Shown: piece after piece, positions 9,177 to 48,693 of the stretch
How positions within the stretch are numbered: the first letter of the stretch is position 1
Layout: the number at the start of each line of letters is the position of its first letter
NCBI GenBank assembly: GCA_020248265.1
Contig: JADCHX010000011.1
Span: 326,670-390,669, forward strand
Reading direction: 5' to 3'
From: Rhodocyclaceae bacterium
Lineage (GTDB): Bacteria > Pseudomonadota > Gammaproteobacteria > Burkholderiales > CAIKXV01
Length of the DNA stretch: 64,000 nt
Notes under the pieces: model-generated
The model's input: the letters and a program-made list of their open reading frames with translations, nothing else
Told to the model about the DNA's origin: nothing
Databases searched by the model: none
Position numbers and translations under genes: made by a program

Positions 9177-10322
9177 TTGACCGTCATCACCGACATCGAA
9201 GACCTGCGTGTACTGCATGAGAAGCGCGCCCCGCGCATGTTCTACGACTACTGCGATTCCGGCGCCTGGACCGAGCGAACCTACCGCTCCAACCAGGCCG
9301 ACCTGCAGGAACTGAAGTTCCGCCAGCGCGTCGCGGTGGACGTGGACCGGCGTTCGATCGCCACAACCATGCTCGGCCAGCCGGTGACGATGCCGGTCGC
9401 GCTCGCGCCGACCGGGCTGGCCGGCATGCAGTGGGCAGACGGCGAGATCCATGCGGCGCGCGCCGCCGAGAAGTTCGGCGTGCCGTTCACGCTGTCGACG
9501 ATGAGCATCTGCTCGATCGAAGACGTTGCCGGGCACACGACGAAGCCGTTCTGGTTCCAGCTCTACGTGCTGCGCGACCGCGCGTTCATCGAGCGGCTGA
9601 TCGAGCGCGCGAGGGCCGCGAAGTGTTCTGCGCTGGTGCTCACGCTCGACCTCACCATCCTCGGCCAGCGCCACAAGGACGTGAAGAACGGACTGTCGAC
9701 GCCGCCAAGGCCGACCCTGGCCAACCTGCTGAACCTGCTGACCAAGCCCCGGTGGTGCCGGAACATGCTGGGTACGCCGCGCCGGCAGTTCGGCAACATC
9801 GTCGGCCATGTCGACGGCGTCGGCGACACCTCCAGCCTCGCCTCCTGGACCAGCGCCCAGTTCGACCCGACGCTCGACTGGAGCGACGTCGAGTGGATCA
9901 AGCGCCGCTGGGGCGGTCCGCTGGTGCTCAAGGGCATCATGGACGCCGAGGACGCACGGCTCGCCGCCGACGCCGGCGCCGATGCGCTGGTGGTCAGCAA
10001 CCACGGGGGGCGCCAGCTCGACGGGGCGCCATCGACGATCGATGCACTGCCGGCGATCGTCGATGCGGTCGGCCCGCGGATCGAGGTCTGGTTCGACAGC
10101 GGCATCCGGTCCGGGCAGGACGTGCTGCGCGCGGTGGCGCTCGGTGCGAAGGCGACGATGATCGGGCGTGCCTACCTGCACGGCCTGGGCGCGATGGGCG
10201 AGGCGGGCGTCACGCGCTGCCTCGAGATCATCCGCAAGGAACTGGACATCACGATGGCCTTCTGCGGCAAGACCGACATCCGGCAGGTCGATCGTTCGAT
10301 CCTGCTGCCGCGGCGACCTTGA
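9177..10322 (+). CDS. FMN-dependent alpha-hydroxy-acid oxidase/dehydrogenase (LldD-like)
   Basis: The 381-residue protein belongs to the FMN-dependent family that includes L-lactate dehydrogenase LldD, glycolate oxidase and mandelate dehydrogenase. It would oxidise a 2-hydroxyacid to the 2-oxoacid and pass electrons to quinone or oxygen. Visible landmarks are MPVALAPTGLAGM near residue 75, FQLYVLRDR, the active-site segment SNHGGRQLDGAPST with catalytic His and Arg, and the FMN-phosphate region GIRSGQDVLRAVALGAKATMIGR. The start is TTG 9177 after GGGGGAAT; an ATG at 9172 is out of frame. The exact hydroxyacid cannot be read from the sequence. A Bug receptor gene follows 82 bp downstream and may bring in the substrate. 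Confidence 0.9.
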   Translation: MTVITDIEDLRVLHEKRAPRMFYDYCDSGAWTERTYRSNQADLQELKFRQRVAVDVDRRSIATTMLGQPVTMPVALAPTGLAGMQWADGEIHAARAAEKFGVPFTLSTMSICSIEDVAGHTTKPFWFQLYVLRDRAFIERLIERARAAKCSALVLTLDLTILGQRHKDVKNGLSTPPRPTLANLLNLLTKPRWCRNMLGTPRRQFGNIVGHVDGVGDTSSLASWTSAQFDPTLDWSDVEWIKRRWGGPLVLKGIMDAEDARLAADAGADALVVSNHGGRQLDGAPSTIDALPAIVDAVGPRIEVWFDSGIRSGQDVLRAVALGAKATMIGRAYLHGLGAMGEAGVTRCLEIIRKELDITMAFCGKTDIRQVDRSILLPRRP

Positions 10323-10404
10323 CGGAAAGGTCAGTTTTCAACCGGCCGATGGAGGCTGCCGTACAATCGCGCGGCCGCTGTCCCGTGCCCCAGGAGTGGA
10401 CCAC

Positions 10405-11382
10405 ATGATCGACCGCATGACCGCCGTGCGCACCACCTGCGCGACCCTGCTTCTGCTCATCGCTGCCGCGACCGTACAGGCGCAGACGTTCCCGAGCCGG
10501 CCGATCCGGCTGGTCGTGCCTTTCGCGCCAGGCGGTGGCACCGACATCATCGGCCGCCAGTTCGCGGCGCGCCTCGGCGATGCGCTCGGCCAGCCGGTCG
10601 CGGTCGACAACCGGGCCGGCGCTGGCGGCAACGTGGGTGCCGAGATCGCGGCGAAAGCGCCGGCCGACGGCCACACGATCATGATCACCACCAACTCGAT
10701 CGCGGTGAACGTCTCGTTGTACCCGAAGCTGAACTACAACCTGTTTACCGATTTCCAGCAGGTCGCCTTCCTCGCCAGCGCCCCGCTGACCCTGGTCACC
10801 CATCCGCTGGTGCCGGCAAAGTCGGTGAAGGACGTCATCGCGCTGTCGCAGAAGCGCAGCGGCGGCCTGAATTTCGGATCGAACGGCACGGGTACCACCA
10901 GCCATCTGTCCGGTGAGTTGTTCAAGCTCTCGGGCAAGGCCGTCCTCACCCACATTCCCTACAAGGGCGCGGGCGGGGTGATCGCGGCACTGATCGGCGG
11001 CGAGGTCGACATGGGCTTCGTCGCCAGCATCAGCGCGCTGCCGCACATCCGTTCCGGCAAGCTGCGCGTGCATGCGGTGACCACCGCACGCCCGGCTGCC
11101 GCGCTGCCGGGCGTGCCGCCGATGGCGAACTTCGTGCCGGGTTTCGATACCGACATCTGGTACGGCGCATGGCTGCCGGCCGGCGTGCAGAAGCCGGTGC
11201 TCGATCGCTGGGTCGAAGAAATGCGCAAGGTGCATGCGCATCCCGACATACGCGCCGCGTTCGAGCGCGATGGGGCGGAAGGTATCTTCCTGCCACCGGC
11301 CGAGTTCGCGGTCTTCCTCAGGAAGGAAGTGGCGAAGTACGCTGAACTGGTCAAGCGCTCCGGCGCGCGCGCGTCCGACTGA
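10405..11382 (+). CDS. Bug-family (TctC) periplasmic solute receptor 1
   Basis: This 325-residue secreted protein belongs to the tripartite tricarboxylate transporter receptor family, which binds carboxylates or amides in the periplasm for TctAB-type transporters. A signal peptide runs to about residue 27 (VQAQ). Family blocks follow: [42 protein letters not shown] and [21 protein letters not shown]. The start ATG 10405 has CAGGAG upstream, and a TACAAT -10-like hexamer lies at 10362. No tctA or tctB genes are near. Its last 32 bases overlap, tail to tail, the end of the Lrp regulator gene on the other strand. The upstream hydroxyacid oxidase suggests a hydroxyacid ligand, but this is only a guess. 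Confidence 0.92.
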
Positions 11383-25531: not shown

Positions 25532-26827
25532 GTGACCCAGACCTTGACCCTGCTCGGCATTCCGGTCGAGTTCCTCCTGTTTGCCTGCACGCTGCTGGGC
25601 GTCGCGCTGTTCCATGCCCACACGCTGAAGGTGGCATTGATCGGGCTTGCTGTGATCACCAGCTACAAGCTCGCGTATGTGGGTTTCCACCATGGCGCGG
25701 GACTGGCCGGGCTGGCGTCCCACCTCGGGCATGAATGGGTGCTCCTTGCGAACCTGATGATGCTGCTGGTCGGCTTTGCGGTGCTCGCACGCTTCTTCGA
25801 TGCCAGCAGGGTCCCGGAAATGTTGCCGCGCTTCCTGCCGGACGACTGGAGGGGCGCATTCATGCTGCTGGTGCTGATCTTCGTGCTGTCCAGTTTCCTC
25901 GACAACATCGCGGCTGCGATCATTGGTGGCACCGTCGCGGCCAGCGTGTTCAAGGGGCGGGTACACATCGGCTACCTCGCTGCGATCGTCGCCGCGTCGA
26001 ATGCCGGGGGTTCTGGCAGCGTGGTGGGCGACACCACGACGACCATGATGTGGATCGGCGGCGTGGATCCGCTCGATGTCGTGCATGCCTATGTCGCGGC
26101 GGTCGTCGCGTTGGTGGTGTGCGGCATTCCGGCCGCGCTGCAGCAGCATCGCCACCAGCCGATCACCGCCGACGTCGCACCGGGCGTGCGCATCGACTGG
26201 GTGCGGGTCGGTATCGTTGCTTTCATCCTGGCATCGGCCATCGCCGCCAATGTCTACGTGAACCTGAGGCATGCGGCGCTCGCCGACAGCTTCCCGTTCA
26301 TCGGCGTCGCGGTGTTCGGCGCCATCCTGCTCAGTTCGCTGCTGCGTCGGCCCGACTGGGCTGTGGTGCCGGAGGCCGCGAAGGGTGCGCTGTTCCTGCT
26401 GTCGCTGGTGCTCTGTGCCTCGATGATGCCCGTCGAGCACCTGCCGGTGGCGAGCTGGCAGACGGCGCTCGGCCTGGGGTTCGTGTCCTCGGTGTTCGAC
26501 AACATTCCGTTGACCAAGCTCGCGCTCGAGCAGGGTGGCTACGACTGGGGTTTCCTTGCGTTCGCGGTCGGCTACGGCGGCTCGATGCTCTGGTTCGGGT
26601 CGTCGGCCGGTATCGCGCTGTCCAACCAGTTCCCGCAGGCACGATCGGTCGGTGCGTGGCTGCGGCACGGTTGGCATGTGGCGCTGGGCTATGTCGTTGG
26701 GTTCTCCGTGATGCTGCTGGTGCTCGGCTGGCATCCGCACGAACCGCAGCGGCGCGGCGATGCGGCTGCTCCGGCGGTCGTGGCTGCGCCGTCCATCGAT
26801 GCTGCGAGGATGCCGGCTGGCGCCTGA
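25532..26827 (+). CDS. Ion-transporter-superfamily permease (citrate/NhaD-like)
   Basis: The 431-residue integral membrane protein has about ten to twelve hydrophobic segments. Hairpin-type motifs typical of the ion transporter superfamily are SSFLDNIAAAIIGGTVAASVF and, later, SSVFDNIPLTKLALEQ, each placing a polar DN(I) inside the membrane. NAGGSGSVVGDTTTTMMWIGG is another family-like segment. Such proteins include NhaD-type sodium/proton antiporters and citrate carriers; which one this is cannot be decided. The start is GTG 25532. The hydrophilic C-terminus is Pro/Ala-rich. It ends 15 bp from the stop of the convergent flagellin gene. Confidence 0.85.
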   Translation: MTQTLTLLGIPVEFLLFACTLLGVALFHAHTLKVALIGLAVITSYKLAYVGFHHGAGLAGLASHLGHEWVLLANLMMLLVGFAVLARFFDASRVPEMLPRFLPDDWRGAFMLLVLIFVLSSFLDNIAAAIIGGTVAASVFKGRVHIGYLAAIVAASNAGGSGSVVGDTTTTMMWIGGVDPLDVVHAYVAAVVALVVCGIPAALQQHRHQPITADVAPGVRIDWVRVGIVAFILASAIAANVYVNLRHAALADSFPFIGVAVFGAILLSSLLRRPDWAVVPEAAKGALFLLSLVLCASMMPVEHLPVASWQTALGLGFVSSVFDNIPLTKLALEQGGYDWGFLAFAVGYGGSMLWFGSSAGIALSNQFPQARSVGAWLRHGWHVALGYVVGFSVMLLVLGWHPHEPQRRGDAAAPAVVAAPSIDAARMPAGA

Positions 26828-26842: not shown

Positions 26843-28564
26843 TCAGCGCAGCAGCGACAGCGCGAGCTGCGGCACCGCATTCGCCTGCGCGAGCATCGAT
26901 ACCGCCGCCTGCTGCAGGATCTGCGCGCGGACCTGCTTCGCGGTTTCCTCGGCGAAGTCGGCGTCCATGATGCGCGACCGGCTCGCCGCGATATTCACCG
27001 CCCCCGACTTCAGGTTGGCGATCACGCTGTCCATCCGTGACAGCTGCGCGCCGATCTGGCCGCGCTGGCTGTTCAGGAAACCGAGCGCTTCATCGATGTG
27101 CACGATCGCCCGCCGCGCATCCTTCGCAAGGTCGACCTCGCCCAGGCCGAGTGCCTGCACGTTGACGGCGCCGATCCGCGCGTCGATGGTCTGGCCGCCT
27201 TCCTGCAGCGAAGACTGGGTGCCGACATGGAACGACAGGTCGCGCGTCGAGGTGCCGGTCGGGTTCGATTCGTCGTACTTGAGCCGGAACCCCTTCAGCG
27301 TGCTGTCGCCGTAGGACGTGCCGCTGATGTTGTCGATGATGCTGGCCGCGGTGAAGACTTTGCCATTGTCCGCATCCAGCCCGCCGATCGCGCCGGTATC
27401 GGCGTTGGTGAGGTTGATGTGGCTGTTGAAGAAGGCCGCGCCGTTGCCGGCGAACGCGGTCTCGAAGGCGGTACGCGTCGTGGGGCCGCCCGAGGCCGCG
27501 AAGAACTGGCTGAACGCGGCATCCATGGTCGCCCCGGGTCGCGACAGGAACTGCATGAAATCCTTGAGGCCGCCGCTCGCGCCGGCATCCTTCAGTGCCT
27601 GGTGCAGGTAACGCGTCGCGAGGTAGCCGGTCGAATAGCTCGCGGAGTTGCCGCCCCAGCTGGTGATCGGTGCCGCGGCGAGCAGCGCGCCGATGCCGCC
27701 GGCGGCCTGCACGTCGGCGGCCAGCCGCTCGTCCGCACCGTGGATGAACTCCGCTGCACCTTCGGTGAACCAGGTCGGGAGCGCCTGGAAATCATCCATC
27801 GACCGGTACATCACTGCATGCACCATCTCGTGCGCGATGATCCGGTCGTTGTAGAACGGCGCGTTGCCACCATCGGGCAGGTTGGGCGGCGTGAAATCGG
27901 CCATATCCACCTGCAGCTTCAGGCTGCTGCCCTTGACGCCCGGGCCGGGGGCCGCGAACGAACCGGCCACGCGGGCGGCGGTGCCGCTCGCGCCGTCGGT
28001 GAAGGTGGTCAGCTGTACCTGCAGTTCGGCGCCGTCGCCCTGGATGCCGAAGAATCTGCTGATCCGGCTCTCCGCCTCCTCGAGCCAGCCGAGCTTCAGC
28101 CCGTCCAGTACGGCGCGTATGCTGGCGTCGCCGCCGATGCCCTGCGTATCCTGCGAGAACACCTGGCTGCCATTGAAGGTGGTGGCGCGTGCGACGCGAT
28201 CGATCTCCGCCATCAGCTGCGACACCTCGGCCTGCAGTGCGGCCCGGTCGCTGGTGTTGTTCGTGCCGTTCGCTGCCTGCACTGCGAGTTCCCTCGCGCG
28301 CTGCAGCGCGTCGACCACCGTGCCCATCGCTCCTTCCGCGGTCTGCAGCAGCGACACGCTGTCGTTCGCATTGCGTTCGGCGCGGTTCATCCCGCGCAGC
28401 TGAGCGGTCATGCGTGACCCCACCGCCAGCCCCGCTGCGTCATCGGCTGCGGTATTGATCCGCACCCCGGAGGACAGGCGCGACAGTGAACGCGACAGGT
28501 CGCTCGACGTACGGTCGAGCGATCGCTGGGCGTTCAGGGCCGCGGTGTTGGTGTAGATCTGCAT
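26843..28564 (-). CDS. fliC: Flagellin with an inserted zinc metallopeptidase domain (flagellinolysin)
   Basis: The 573-residue protein has complete flagellin ends: the N-terminal D0/D1 coiled region (IYTNTAALNAQRSLDRTSSDL, residues 3-135) and the C-terminal D1/D0 region (about 460-573, ending VPQLALSLLR). The variable region carries a peptidase domain with HEMVH at residues 245-249 and WFTEGAAEF, where Glu 268 is the likely third zinc ligand. This is the architecture of flagellinolysins, flagellins that assemble into proteolytic filaments, known from Clostridium and some betaproteobacteria such as Hylemonella. Export is by the flagellar type III system. The first residue is ATG 28564. A sigma-28 promoter lies 52 bp upstream. 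No other flagellar gene is in the window, so it may be a second flagellin. Confidence 0.95.
   Translation of the reverse strand: MQIYTNTAALNAQRSLDRTSSDLSRSLSRLSSGVRINTAADDAAGLAVGSRMTAQLRGMNRAERNANDSVSLLQTAEGAMGTVVDALQRARELAVQAANGTNNTSDRAALQAEVSQLMAEIDRVARATTFNGSQVFSQDTQGIGGDASIRAVLDGLKLGWLEEAESRISRFFGIQGDGAELQVQLTTFTDGASGTAARVAGSFAAPGPGVKGSSLKLQVDMADFTPPNLPDGGNAPFYNDRIIAHEMVHAVMYRSMDDFQALPTWFTEGAAEFIHGADERLAADVQAAGGIGALLAAAPITSWGGNSASYSTGYLATRYLHQALKDAGASGGLKDFMQFLSRPGATMDAAFSQFFAASGGPTTRTAFETAFAGNGAAFFNSHINLTNADTGAIGGLDADNGKVFTAASIIDNISGTSYGDSTLKGFRLKYDESNPTGTSTRDLSFHVGTQSSLQEGGQTIDARIGAVNVQALGLGEVDLAKDARRAIVHIDEALGFLNSQRGQIGAQLSRMDSVIANLKSGAVNIAASRSRIMDADFAEETAKQVRAQILQQAAVSMLAQANAVPQLALSLLR
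27816..27832 (-). other. HExxH zinc-binding motif of the flagellinolysin
   Basis: Codons for His 245, Glu 246, Met, Val and His 249 read HEMVH on the minus strand, followed by Ala. His 245 and His 249 should hold zinc and Glu 246 should act as general base. The third ligand, Glu 268, lies at about 27763-27761. All the catalytic residues expected for a gluzincin-type peptidase are present. Confidence 0.9.
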
Positions 28565-28642: not shown

Positions 28643-28777
28643 GGGGGCAGCACGGGCGGTCTCGTATCGCCCCGCCCGGTACTGGGGGGGCACCCCCTGC
28701 AGCTGCCTGCCCTTGCCTGCAACACCGGCGTCCCGCTGCGATATAGTTCCGGCGGCCGCAACAGGGGGGATGGCGTG

Positions 28778-29755
28778 ATGGCGTACAAGGTGGTGGTGAC
28801 GCGCGAGGTGTTCGACGATGTACTCGAACGGCTTCGCGCCGGAGCGACGGTGGTCGACAACCCGTCCGACAGGCCGTTGTCCCCGGAAGAGCTGGCGGCG
28901 CGTGCGGCGGATGCCGATGCGCTCGTCTGTGCGCTGACCGACCGCATCGACGATGCACTGCTCGCCCGTTGCCCGAAGCTGAAGGTCGTGGCCAACATCG
29001 CGGTCGGCCACAACAACATCGACCTGGCGGCCTGTACTGCGCGCGGCGTGATGGCCACGAATACCCCCGGGGTTCTCGACGAGACCACTGCCGATTTCGC
29101 ATGGGCGCTGATGCTCGGTGCGGCGCGCCGTGTCACCGAGGCCGAGCGGTACCTGCGCGAAGGCCGGTGGACGGGATGGCAGCTGAAGCAGTTGCTCGGA
29201 GTGGATGTGCACCATGCGACGCTCGGAATTATCGGCATGGGCCGAATCGGGCAGGCGATCGCACGGCGTGCGCAGGGCTTTTCGATGTCGGTCCTTTACT
29301 GCAACCGCAGTCGCCTCGACGCCGAGACCGAGCGCAGCCTGAACGCCCGCTGGGTGGCCCGCGACGAACTGCTGACCGCAGCGGATTTCGTCGTGCTGAT
29401 GGTGCCGTATTCGCCAGCGACCCACCACCTGATCGGCGCGGCCGAGCTCGCTCGGATGAAGCCGACGGCGGTCCTGGTCAATACCGCCCGCGGCGGGGTG
29501 GTCGATGACCGCGCCCTGGTCGAGGCATTGCGCCGGCGGACGATCGCCGCGGCCGGCATCGACGTGTTCGAAGGCGAACCGGCTTTCGACCGTGACTTCC
29601 TCGCGCTCGACAACGTTGTGCTCGCACCGCACATCGCCAGTTCGTCCGCTGCCACGCGCCGCGGGATGGCGATGCTGGCTGCCCGCAATGCGCTGTGCGT
29701 TCTCTCCGGGGAGCGCCCGCCGAACCTGCTCAACCCCGATGCCTGGAAGTCCTGA
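28778..29755 (+). CDS. D-2-hydroxyacid dehydrogenase (glyoxylate/hydroxypyruvate reductase-like)
   Basis: The 325-residue NAD(P)-dependent enzyme belongs to the D-isomer-specific 2-hydroxyacid dehydrogenase family. It has the dinucleotide motif GIIGMGRIGQAIA and the catalytic trio: Arg in VNTARGGVVDD, Glu in DVFEGEP and His in APHIASSS. The N-terminal domain contains VVANIAVGHNNIDL. It reduces a 2-oxoacid such as glyoxylate or hydroxypyruvate, or oxidises the hydroxyacid; which one is not decided by the sequence. ATG 28778 is preferred to GTG 28775. The gene is divergent from the flagellin and is followed 21 bp later by the Kelch gene. Confidence 0.92.
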   Translation: MAYKVVVTREVFDDVLERLRAGATVVDNPSDRPLSPEELAARAADADALVCALTDRIDDALLARCPKLKVVANIAVGHNNIDLAACTARGVMATNTPGVLDETTADFAWALMLGAARRVTEAERYLREGRWTGWQLKQLLGVDVHHATLGIIGMGRIGQAIARRAQGFSMSVLYCNRSRLDAETERSLNARWVARDELLTAADFVVLMVPYSPATHHLIGAAELARMKPTAVLVNTARGGVVDDRALVEALRRRTIAAAGIDVFEGEPAFDRDFLALDNVVLAPHIASSSAATRRGMAMLAARNALCVLSGERPPNLLNPDAWKS

Positions 29756-45276: not shown

Positions 45277-46371
45277 TCAGTCGCGCGCGCCCAGCGCCAG
45301 CGCACGCTCGCGGGTCGCGTCGCTGGCCGCGGCTGCCGCTTTCGGATCGAGGCCGGTGTCGATCCAGCCCGCGAGGTGCGTTGTGACCAGGCCGGTCAGC
45401 GCATGTATCCAGTCGGGCCGATCGTTCAGGCACGGGATGCTGTGGTACTCCTTGCCGCCGGCATACAGGAAGCTGCTCTTGCCTTCGATGCCGATTTCTT
45501 CGAGCGTCTCGAGGCAGTCGGCGACGAAGCCGGGACACACGACATCCACCCGCCGGGTACCGGCGCGTCCGAGTTCTTCCAGCGTCTCTGACGTGTACGG
45601 CTTCAGCCATTCAGCCTGCCCGAAGCGGGACTGGAAGGTGACCCGGTACTTCTCGGGCGGTAGCCCGAGCGCCTCTGCCAGCAACCGGCCGGTCTTGTGG
45701 CATTCGCAGTGATACGGGTCGCCGCGGTCGAGCGCGAAACGCGGGATGCCGTGGAAGCTGATCACGAGCAGATCCGGCCGACCGTTCTCTGACCAGTAGC
45801 GCTGCACGTTGGTCTTGAGCGCCTGGATGTAGGCCGGGTCGTCATGGAAATGCTTGACGGTACGAAGTGCCGGCGGATTGCGCATCTTCTTCAGCACGTC
45901 GAACGTGGCATCGAACACCGTCGCGGTCGCGCTGGCCGAGTACTGCGGATACAAGGGCAGGACCAGGATGCGGTCGCATCCTTCGGCTGCCATTTCGAGT
46001 ATGCGCTGCTCGATCGAGGGCTTGCCGTAGCGCATCGCGAAGTCGACCGTCAGCGGTGTCTTGACCTGCTCGCCGAGGTAGCCCGCCAGCAGTTTCGCCT
46101 GCCGTTCGGTATACACGCGCAGCGGCGAACCCTCTGGTGTCCAGATCATCGCGTACTTCGCGGCGGACTTCTTCGGGCGCGTATTCAGGATGATCAGGTT
46201 GAGGATGGGCCACCAGATCAGCTTCGGTATCTCGATCACCCGGGGATCCGACAGGAACTGCTTGACGTACGGCCGGAACGCGCGCGCTGTCGGCGCGGCA
46301 GGAGTGCCGAGGTTCACGAGCAACACGCCGATGCGCGGTTGCGTGCCGTGGCGGTAGGCGACGGTACTCAC
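45277..46371 (-). CDS. hemH: Ferrochelatase HemH
   Basis: The 364-residue enzyme inserts ferrous iron into protoporphyrin IX, the last step of haem synthesis. Family landmarks are [42 protein letters not shown], the active-site His in ISFHGIP and the late [15 protein letters not shown]. The start is GTG 46371; the leader has little SD. The gene lies 53 bp from the convergent kinase gene and 81 bp downstream of hrcA, same strand, so hrcA-hemH may be one transcript. Confidence 0.97.
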
Positions 46372-46452
46372 GCTGCGTCCAGTGCCGTAAAGGAGGGGTG
46401 CCGACGCTCCGCGGCGCCGGCCACGCTCCCCGGACGCGCGCCGGGGCGGCGG

Positions 46453-47469
46453 TCAGCGATGACTGAGCGCACTGCCGATCAGCTTTGCAGTGATGTCGAC
46501 GATCGGGATCACCCGCTCGTACGCCATCCGGGTCGGCCCGATCACGCCGAGCGTGCCGACGACCTGGCCGTCCACTTCATAGGGTGCGGTGACGATGCTG
46601 CACTCGTCCAGCGGGGAGATGCCCGATTCGCCGCCGATGAATATCTGCACGCCTTGCGCATGCAGGCTGGTGTCGAGCAGGTGCAGCAGGGCGGTCTTGC
46701 GCTCGAACACGTTGAACAGTTCACGCAGGCGCCCCATGTCGGTGGACAGGTCGGGGATGCCCAGCAGGTTTCGCTCTCCCGAGACCACCAGGTCTTCCGG
46801 GCTGGTCATGGCTGCGCTGCCGACTTCGATCGCGGCGTTCATCAGCGCCGACACATCCTGTTTCAGCGCCACGAGTTCACCCTGCAGGCGAAGGCGGATC
46901 TGGTCGAACCCCGTACCGGCATAGTGCTGATTGACGAAATTCGATGCCTCGATCAGCTCGGTCGCGGAGTAGTCGCGCGCCGTGGTGAGGATGCGGTTGT
47001 GCACCTCGCCATCTGGCGCGACGACGATCAGCAGCACGCGCTTTTCGGACAGGCGCAGGAATTCGAGGTGACGGAAGGCCTGGTCCTGGCGACGCGGCGT
47101 CATCACCACGCCCGCGAACGCAGTGAGTTCGGACAGCATGTGCGAGGCCGAGGCGACCAGCCGACGCCGGCTGTCATTCTCCAGCTGGCCCTCGAGCTGG
47201 GTGATCTCGACCTGTTCGAGCGGCTTTACCCGCAGCAGCGTGTCGACGAAGAAGCGGTAGCCGCGGGCGGTCGGCACGCGTCCGGCCGAAGTGTGCGGGC
47301 TGGCGATGAAGCCCATCTCTTCGAGGTCGGCCATCACGTTGCGAATGCTCGCCGGCGACAGTTCGAGCCCGGAGTACTTGGAGAGCGTGCGCGAGCCCAC
47401 CGGGTCGCCGTCGGCGATGTATCGCTCGATAAGCGTCTTCAGCAGCAGTTGTGCACGATCGTTGAGCAT
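46453..47469 (-). CDS. hrcA: Heat-inducible transcription repressor HrcA
   Basis: The 338-residue repressor controls groE and dnaK-type genes through the CIRCE element. It has an N-terminal winged-helix domain ([37 protein letters not shown]) and the HrcA C-terminal domain with [20 protein letters not shown] and the GxExG-type segment IGGESGI. Start ATG 47469. I found no CIRCE element in the window, so its target here may be elsewhere (groESL). It is divergent from nadK. Confidence 0.96.
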
Positions 47470-47673
47470 GGCCTCATTCTACCCATCGGACACCGCTGCG
47501 GGGCAACCCTGCGGTTGCCCGGGCTGGCGGCGCCGTCCCCGATGGCCGGTGGCGTACGCCGGCTGCCGCACTTTCCAGCGTCGTTGTCGCCCTCTGCAGC
47601 CCTCTGCCGCCGGCCTTCCCGGTTCATCCGCCGATCCTGTTTCGGCACCGAACGTGTGTGTTCTAATCCGTCC

Positions 47674-48693
47674 ATGAACGAACCAGCCTACCGACCCGCG
47701 CCTCTCGGGGCAGACCAGCCGTCCGGCGCTGCGCCGCACGGCGGGGCCAGCGCCCGCGTCCTGCCCGGCGGCCGAGCCGCACTGCGTACGCCGTCGCGCA
47801 CCTTCGGTACCGTGGCCCTGATCGGCAAATACAAGAGCCCGCTCATCGCCGAGCCGCTCGCCGATCTGGCGAGGCACCTGGCCGCGCGCGGGGTCGAGGT
47901 TCTTATCGACCGGCTGACCGCGGCCCATGTCGGCGGCGACATGGCCGGCGCGCTCTCGCTGGAGGAAATCGGCCAGCGTGCCGGGCTGGCCGTGGTGCTC
48001 GGCGGCGACGGTACGATGCTGAACATCGCGCGCACGCTGGCGCCGTTTGGCGTGCCGCTGGTCGGCGTGAACCAGGGGCGCCTGGGTTTCCTCACCGACC
48101 TGTCGGTAGACCGCATGGCGGTTGCGCTCGATGCGATCCTCGATGGGCACTATCTTGCCGAGTCCCGCATGCTGCTCGAGGCGACGGTCGGCCCCGGCAG
48201 CGACGCGCTCGCCGCCGATGCCGGGGCCGTCGAAGCCCCCGCGACCGTGCTGGCGTTCAACGACGTCGTCATCAGCAAGGGCGAGCGCGGCGGCATGATC
48301 GAATTCGATGTTTCGGTCGATGGGCAGTACGTGACCAGCCTGCGCGCAGACGGCCTGATCATCGCCTCTCCGACCGGGTCTACCGCCTATGCACTGTCCT
48401 CGGGCGGCCCGATCGTGCATCCGTCGCTGTCGGTGATGAGCCTGGTGCCGATCTGTCCGCATACCCTGTCGAACCGGCCGATCATCGTGTCTGCCGGCTC
48501 GTCGATCGAGGTCAGGATGCACGCGGGCAGCGAAGCGGTGGTGCGTTTCGATAGCCATTCCGACGCGGCGATCTGCAGCGCCGACCGCCTGCAGGTGCGC
48601 CGTTCCGACCACGACGTCATGCTGCTGCATCCGAACGACTACGACTACTTCCACATGCTGCGCGAGAAGCTCAAGTGGAGCGAAACCCTGTAG
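47674..48693 (+). CDS. nadK: NAD kinase
   Basis: The 339-residue enzyme phosphorylates NAD to NADP. It has the GGDGT motif (LGGDGTMLNIARTLAP), NQGRLGFLTD, and NDVVISKGERGGMIEF, then PTGSTAYALSSGGPIV. Compared with E. coli NadK (292 residues) it has an N-terminal extension of about 45 residues, Pro/Gly-rich and probably disordered. Start ATG 47674 is the first in the frame after a long region without a good start; a start nearer the kinase core is possible. It ends 3 bp before the recN start. Confidence 0.95.
   Translation: MNEPAYRPAPLGADQPSGAAPHGGASARVLPGGRAALRTPSRTFGTVALIGKYKSPLIAEPLADLARHLAARGVEVLIDRLTAAHVGGDMAGALSLEEIGQRAGLAVVLGGDGTMLNIARTLAPFGVPLVGVNQGRLGFLTDLSVDRMAVALDAILDGHYLAESRMLLEATVGPGSDALAADAGAVEAPATVLAFNDVVISKGERGGMIEFDVSVDGQYVTSLRADGLIIASPTGSTAYALSSGGPIVHPSLSVMSLVPICPHTLSNRPIIVSAGSSIEVRMHAGSEAVVRFDSHSDAAICSADRLQVRRSDHDVMLLHPNDYDYFHMLREKLKWSETL

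Follow-up and report, generated by a model that had tools for sequence, protein, structure and literature searches.

A predicted flagellinolysin with a conserved gluzincin active site and a putative FliA-type promoter in a Rhodocyclaceae genome

Flagellinolysins were first reported in 2017, when the proteolytic filaments of Clostridium haemolyticum were described and their activity measured (PMC5595980); the flagellinolysin of Hylemonella gracilis, also with measured activity and encoded outside the flagellar clusters, followed in 2020 (PMC7643111). As described in the available sections of these two reports, the C. haemolyticum enzyme FliA(H), placed in MEROPS family M101 by PMC7643111, is located in the filament, where it accounts for up to 10% of the structure and provides 1000-2000 active sites, and its activity sediments with the filament (PMC5595980). 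Here we analyzed a 64,000-nucleotide window from a Rhodocyclaceae bacterium (contig JADCHX010000011.1) containing an open reading frame (ORF) whose product, by the curated family model, is another member of this published family of enzymatic flagella. Like FliA(H), it has a predicted gluzincin domain with an HExxH motif between flagellin ends and occurs as a second flagellin beside a structural one, and comparison with the published members and the family model revealed no departure from the family.

The ORF starts with ATG and encodes 573 amino acids with no internal stops. The NCBIfam equivalog model NF033876 (flagellinolysin) matches residues 110-504 at 402.6 bits (cut-off 205; E = 2.3e-120), in agreement with the identity assigned by a first-pass annotation made from the sequence alone. 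The flagellin D0/D1 ends that it had called intact are both recognized by Pfam (Table 1) and match solved polymerised flagellin filaments in a model of the whole protein, and the C-terminal LSLLR is shared with 9 of 11 FliC-type proteins from this and related genomes. HEMVH and Glu268, the latter within WFTEGAAEF (residues 265-273), lie at the positions originally given. Pfam Peptidase_M9 (PF01752) aligns to residues 245-354 at 22.1 bits, under its curated cut-off of 26, and assignment to the M9 collagenases was dropped on that score.

Homologs of residues 140-480 at E ≤ 1e-3 numbered 1125 among 7991 scored candidates. In an alignment of 121 proteins (the query and the 120 listed of these homologs), His245, Glu246, His249, and Glu268 are invariant and Ala271 is present in 120. 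A second, partly overlapping set drawn from genome contigs, which includes two Bacillota and comprises 58 of 80 loci (one locus with a stop was dropped), retains all five residues in 58/58. The peptidase domain shows no obvious inactivating change, as had been proposed. Ala271, three residues past Glu268, fits the published basement alanine; going by the description in PMC5595980, Glu268 and Ala271 correspond to Glu262 and Ala265 of FliA(H), while HExxH occupies residues 249-253 in the H. gracilis protein HgrFlaMP (PMC7643111). Two aspartates before HExxH, Asp220 (120/121 and 53/58) and Asp223 (98/121 and 53/58), are candidate calcium ligands. A core profile of 22 sequences compared with solved structures gave weak matches to Grimontia and Vibrio collagenases (E = 0.023 and 0.041), which align HExxH with HEYVH in the first and Glu268 with the WWSEG glutamate in both, consistent with the earlier suggestion that Glu268 is the third zinc ligand. 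Tyr310 and Tyr314 are invariant in a 116-protein subset of the 121 (alignment A1) and align to YxxGY of the same collagenases; one of the two may take part in catalysis. Five flagellinolysin relatives of 694-713 residues (P0034, P0080, P0087, P0092, and P0097) carry about 130 extra residues within the peptidase domain, following the position of residue 285, and keep the HExxH and EG motifs; no Pfam match was found in the extra segment of the three that were scanned (P0034, P0080, and P0097).

The predicted structure places HExxH on a helix (239-255) and Glu268 on the one that follows (264-275), with a block-mean predicted local distance difference test (pLDDT) score of 97; so far as the model shows, the separation of HExxH from Glu268 that the first-pass annotation had named as refuting its reading does not arise. 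A Foldseek search with the whole model returned flagellin structures alone among the best 50 of 139 matches, and the variable region was therefore modelled separately. By itself it gave no Foldseek match at E ≤ 0.001, and a second look with VIA-align ranked collagenases and other gluzincins at the top. The peptidase region is accordingly predicted to adopt a gluzincin fold near that of the M9 collagenases (ColG, ColT, ColH, and the Vibrio and Grimontia enzymes), from which it differs in its low structural-alignment identity (10-15%) and in its insertion within a flagellin.

The source genome (4.55 Mb, 33 contigs) contains two further Flagellin_N matches. One is a 492-residue FliC followed by FlaG, FliD, FliS, FliT, and a FliK-like gene (contig C15). 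The other is a 433-residue protein on contig C19 that we judge to be FlgL-like from its sequence and an adjoining FlgK-like ORF; the same contig encodes FlhA (919.1 bits) and FliA (281.6 bits against a cut-off of 189.6). With these genes present, which the first-pass annotation had suggested seeking, flagellinolysin is by sequence a second flagellin in an organism equipped with flagellar genes. No other flagellar gene was found near it among the window ORFs scanned (a part of all window ORFs), in line with the original observation. Its location among unrelated genes contrasts with that of the FliA(H) gene, which PMC7643111 places in a flagellar cluster, and resembles that of HgrFlaMP, which, by the description in the same report, belongs to a Gram-negative member of the Burkholderiales and is encoded away from flagellar genes. 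The neighbors differ: a NUDIX hydrolase and a MarR regulator are among those of HgrFlaMP (PMC7643111), whereas the gene here has an NhaD-like antiporter on one side and a 2-hydroxyacid dehydrogenase on the other. The nearest named relatives are metagenome-assembled Betaproteobacteria/Burkholderiales. The protein shares D0/D1 ends and upstream sigma-28-type boxes with its own FliC, with 55% identity in the D0/D1 core, but FliC has no peptidase family match and sits with FlaG/FliD/FliS/FliT. In a 35-row D0/D1 tree, flagellinolysin is placed among other flagellinolysins (93/85, without a star), outside a group of ten FliC proteins (100/99); as to whether the family had a single origin, the tree needs two changes because a 643-residue flagellin of a related genome (G004) pairs with a long-branched flagellinolysin.

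The promoter counts rest on a plain sigma-28 (FliA) box consensus, which we take to be of the TAAAGTTT-N11-GCCGATAA type, and not on a pattern derived from the site. Allowing up to three mismatches, the only match in the window lies upstream of the flagellinolysin gene (Table 1), against an average of 0.01 in shuffles. Genome-wide there are 17 such sites, two of which precede fliC, versus 2 for the reversed pattern, and no match to the exact consensus at a spacing of 10-12. The box aligns at the same place in three other carriers of the genus (12, 11, and 12 of 16 positions); outside the box, two of them show little upstream conservation, and the nearest one has similar upstream DNA. Two of three more distant flagellinolysin genes also have a box (12/16 and 16/16), the third having none (best 10). 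Across 71 of 80 fetched loci (some of the nine omitted being partial or split matches), 35 carry a box of at least 12/16 within 200 nucleotides, although many of the 71 are closely related, the loci are not independent, and half lack a recognizable box. Controls gave 1 of 71 intragenic stretches, 2.8% of shuffles, and 8 of 364 upstream regions of other long ORFs at the same loci (ORFs of 900 bases or more called mechanically from ATG, as opposed to confirmed genes), while fliC upstream regions searched over 300 nucleotides have the box in 10/10. FliA most likely transcribes the flagellinolysin gene. No description of sigma-28 promoters for flagellinolysin genes was found in a literature search that excluded subscription papers and supplements: the available text of PMC5595980 contains neither "promoter" nor "regulon" and "sigma" once, all three occurrences of "sigma" in that of PMC7643111 are a supplier's name, and the accessible passages of a Pseudoalteromonas tunicata study (PMC12153261) do not bear on the promoter. 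One of the more distant genes (locus L050 of genome G014, 9460-11201) is in two pieces, with a break near residue 450 that may be a frameshift, either natural or from the assembly; the box upstream of it agrees with the consensus at 16/16 with 12-nucleotide spacing.

Flagellinolysin scores above the cut-off in 4 of 11 genomes of the genus. Ratios of nonsynonymous to synonymous substitution (dN/dS) in the six pairs of carriers are 0.10-0.16 over the gene; residues 141-475 give 0.09-0.21 and residues 236-285 give 0.04-0.10. The last segment lies below the whole gene in 5/6 pairs, the sixth (G006-G009) giving 0.101 versus 0.097, and the peptidase region is, on these ratios, under purifying selection. 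Another FliC-type match is present in 10 of the 11 genomes, that of G001 being truncated where its contig stops. In G006, which is 84% complete, only the flagellinolysin and FlgL-like matches are seen. The gene lies between the antiporter and the dehydrogenase in G000 and G007, and in G009 with about 4 kb extra on the dehydrogenase side; in G006 it adjoins the antiporter on a short contig. Three genomes without the gene (G003, G010, and G004) have an antiporter-dehydrogenase gap of approximately 140-155 bp. G003 keeps about 81 bp of the flagellinolysin 3′ end, nearer to flagellinolysin than to fliC: its scores with the 3′ ends of the four carriers are 101, 96, 71, and 65, compared with maxima of 24-29 in 200 mononucleotide shuffles and 39-54 for seven fliC 3′ ends. 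G010 keeps about 33 bp (40-56, versus shuffle maxima of 23-28 and fliC scores of 18-21), and G004 has no significant 3′ remnant (22-26 versus shuffle maxima of 23-26). Because these remnants persist between the flanking genes, flagellinolysin has been lost from G003 and G010, and recent gain within the genus is rejected for these two genomes. At the site in G001, G002, G005, and G008, the contig ends, or the gene and the dehydrogenase are both missing from the roughly 1.5 kb next to the antiporter. The number of losses was left uncounted because the tree of the genus, in which 10 rows are used and G006 is left out, is weak, with one of seven inner branches starred. Besides FliC, G004 encodes on contig C148 (L151) the 643-residue flagellin mentioned above, which is different, and another Flagellin_N match close by; these two perhaps belong to a second flagellar system.

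The best explanation of the architecture, conserved active site, predicted fold, co-occurring FliC and FliA, promoter box, and purifying selection, and very probably the right one, is a FliA-driven accessory flagellin in the FliC filament that displays a zinc-dependent gluzincin domain at the surface. The D0/D1 ends would allow export and co-polymerisation into a filament made mainly by conventional FliC, and the surface-exposed variable region would act as an endopeptidase dependent on zinc, and probably calcium, with His245, His249, and Glu268 as zinc ligands and Glu246 as general base. Transcription by FliA would make the enzyme appear while the filament is being built. By analogy with the two published members, we expect export, co-assembly, proteolytic activity, and cleavage before large hydrophobic residues; peptide foraging, the biofilm matrix, and competitor flagella are candidate uses. 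Multiple peptidase copies per filament, as first proposed, would follow, but "thousands" is the upper reading of the C. haemolyticum figures given above. A protein that leaves through the flagellar export apparatus and acts mainly as a free protease outside the filament is an unlikely alternative on balance: the core divergence from FliC and the isolated gene would suit it, and the available text of PMC7643111 raises post-secretion action as a possibility, citing Campylobacter jejuni FlaC, yet both flagellin ends are complete and resemble polymerised flagellins down to the LSLLR terminus, and the C. haemolyticum activity is found in the filament (PMC5595980).

A further alternative is a dead domain, kept as the surface domain of a structural flagellin. 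The gene is not essential, having been lost from two or more genomes of the genus, and activity here is predicted, but invariance of every catalytic residue and the low dN/dS around the active site make this reading less probable than free secretion. The idea that HExxH arose by chance in an ordinary hypervariable flagellin draws on the shortness of the motif and the sub-threshold M9 match; it is refuted by a family score almost twice the cut-off and by the conservation of the four catalytic residues among so many homologs, with which the gluzincin-like fold agrees.

What is added here to the published family, on regulation and on loss, is modest. There is perhaps an even chance that, in many Proteobacteria, flagellinolysins are FliA-controlled accessory flagellins whose genes may lie away from flagellar clusters yet retain a sigma-28 promoter, and that within a genus they form an optional coat, repeatedly deleted. 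If so, the protease would be loaded only during filament building, and the deletions, which perhaps follow habitat, would leave scars. The case contributes the prediction that FliA controls a gene located outside flagellar clusters, and a betaproteobacterial genus in which genomes with the gene and genomes that have naturally lost it from the same site can be compared for the protease's purpose.

Table 1 Features of the flagellinolysin locus in window coordinates
Feature	Position	Strand	Basis or remark
Flagellinolysin gene (flagellin + metallopeptidase domain)	26843..28564	-	573 aa; NF033876
Flagellin D0/D1 N-terminal part, residues 1-138	28151..28564	-	PF00669 Flagellin_N, residues 3-138, 138.1 bits
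Variable region with predicted gluzincin peptidase domain (residues 141-475, the segment modelled separately)	27140..28144	-	
HEMVH zinc-binding/catalytic motif, residues 245-249	27818..27832	-	H245, E246, H249 in 121/121
Glu268, putative third zinc ligand	27761..27763	-	121/121 and 58/58; weak alignment to collagenase WxEG glutamate
Flagellin D0/D1 C-terminal part, residues 489-572	26849..27100	-	PF00700 Flagellin_C, 73.3 bits
Putative sigma-28 (FliA)-type promoter, TCAATTTT-N11-GCCGTTAA	28616..28642	-	13/16; ends 51 nt before start codon
NhaD-like antiporter, convergent flank	25532..26827	+	Weak: under NCBIfam cut-offs, 0 Pfam matches; conserved flank
D-2-hydroxyacid dehydrogenase, divergent flank	28775..29755	+	PF02826, 207.1 bits; conserved flank

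Elsewhere in the window, an Rfam scan gave no matches at gathering thresholds. A 949-residue open frame at 45844-48693 (+) matches NAD kinase in its last 300 residues only; no Pfam match falls in its first 650 residues, where GC-rich DNA has probably left a long frame open ahead of the true start.
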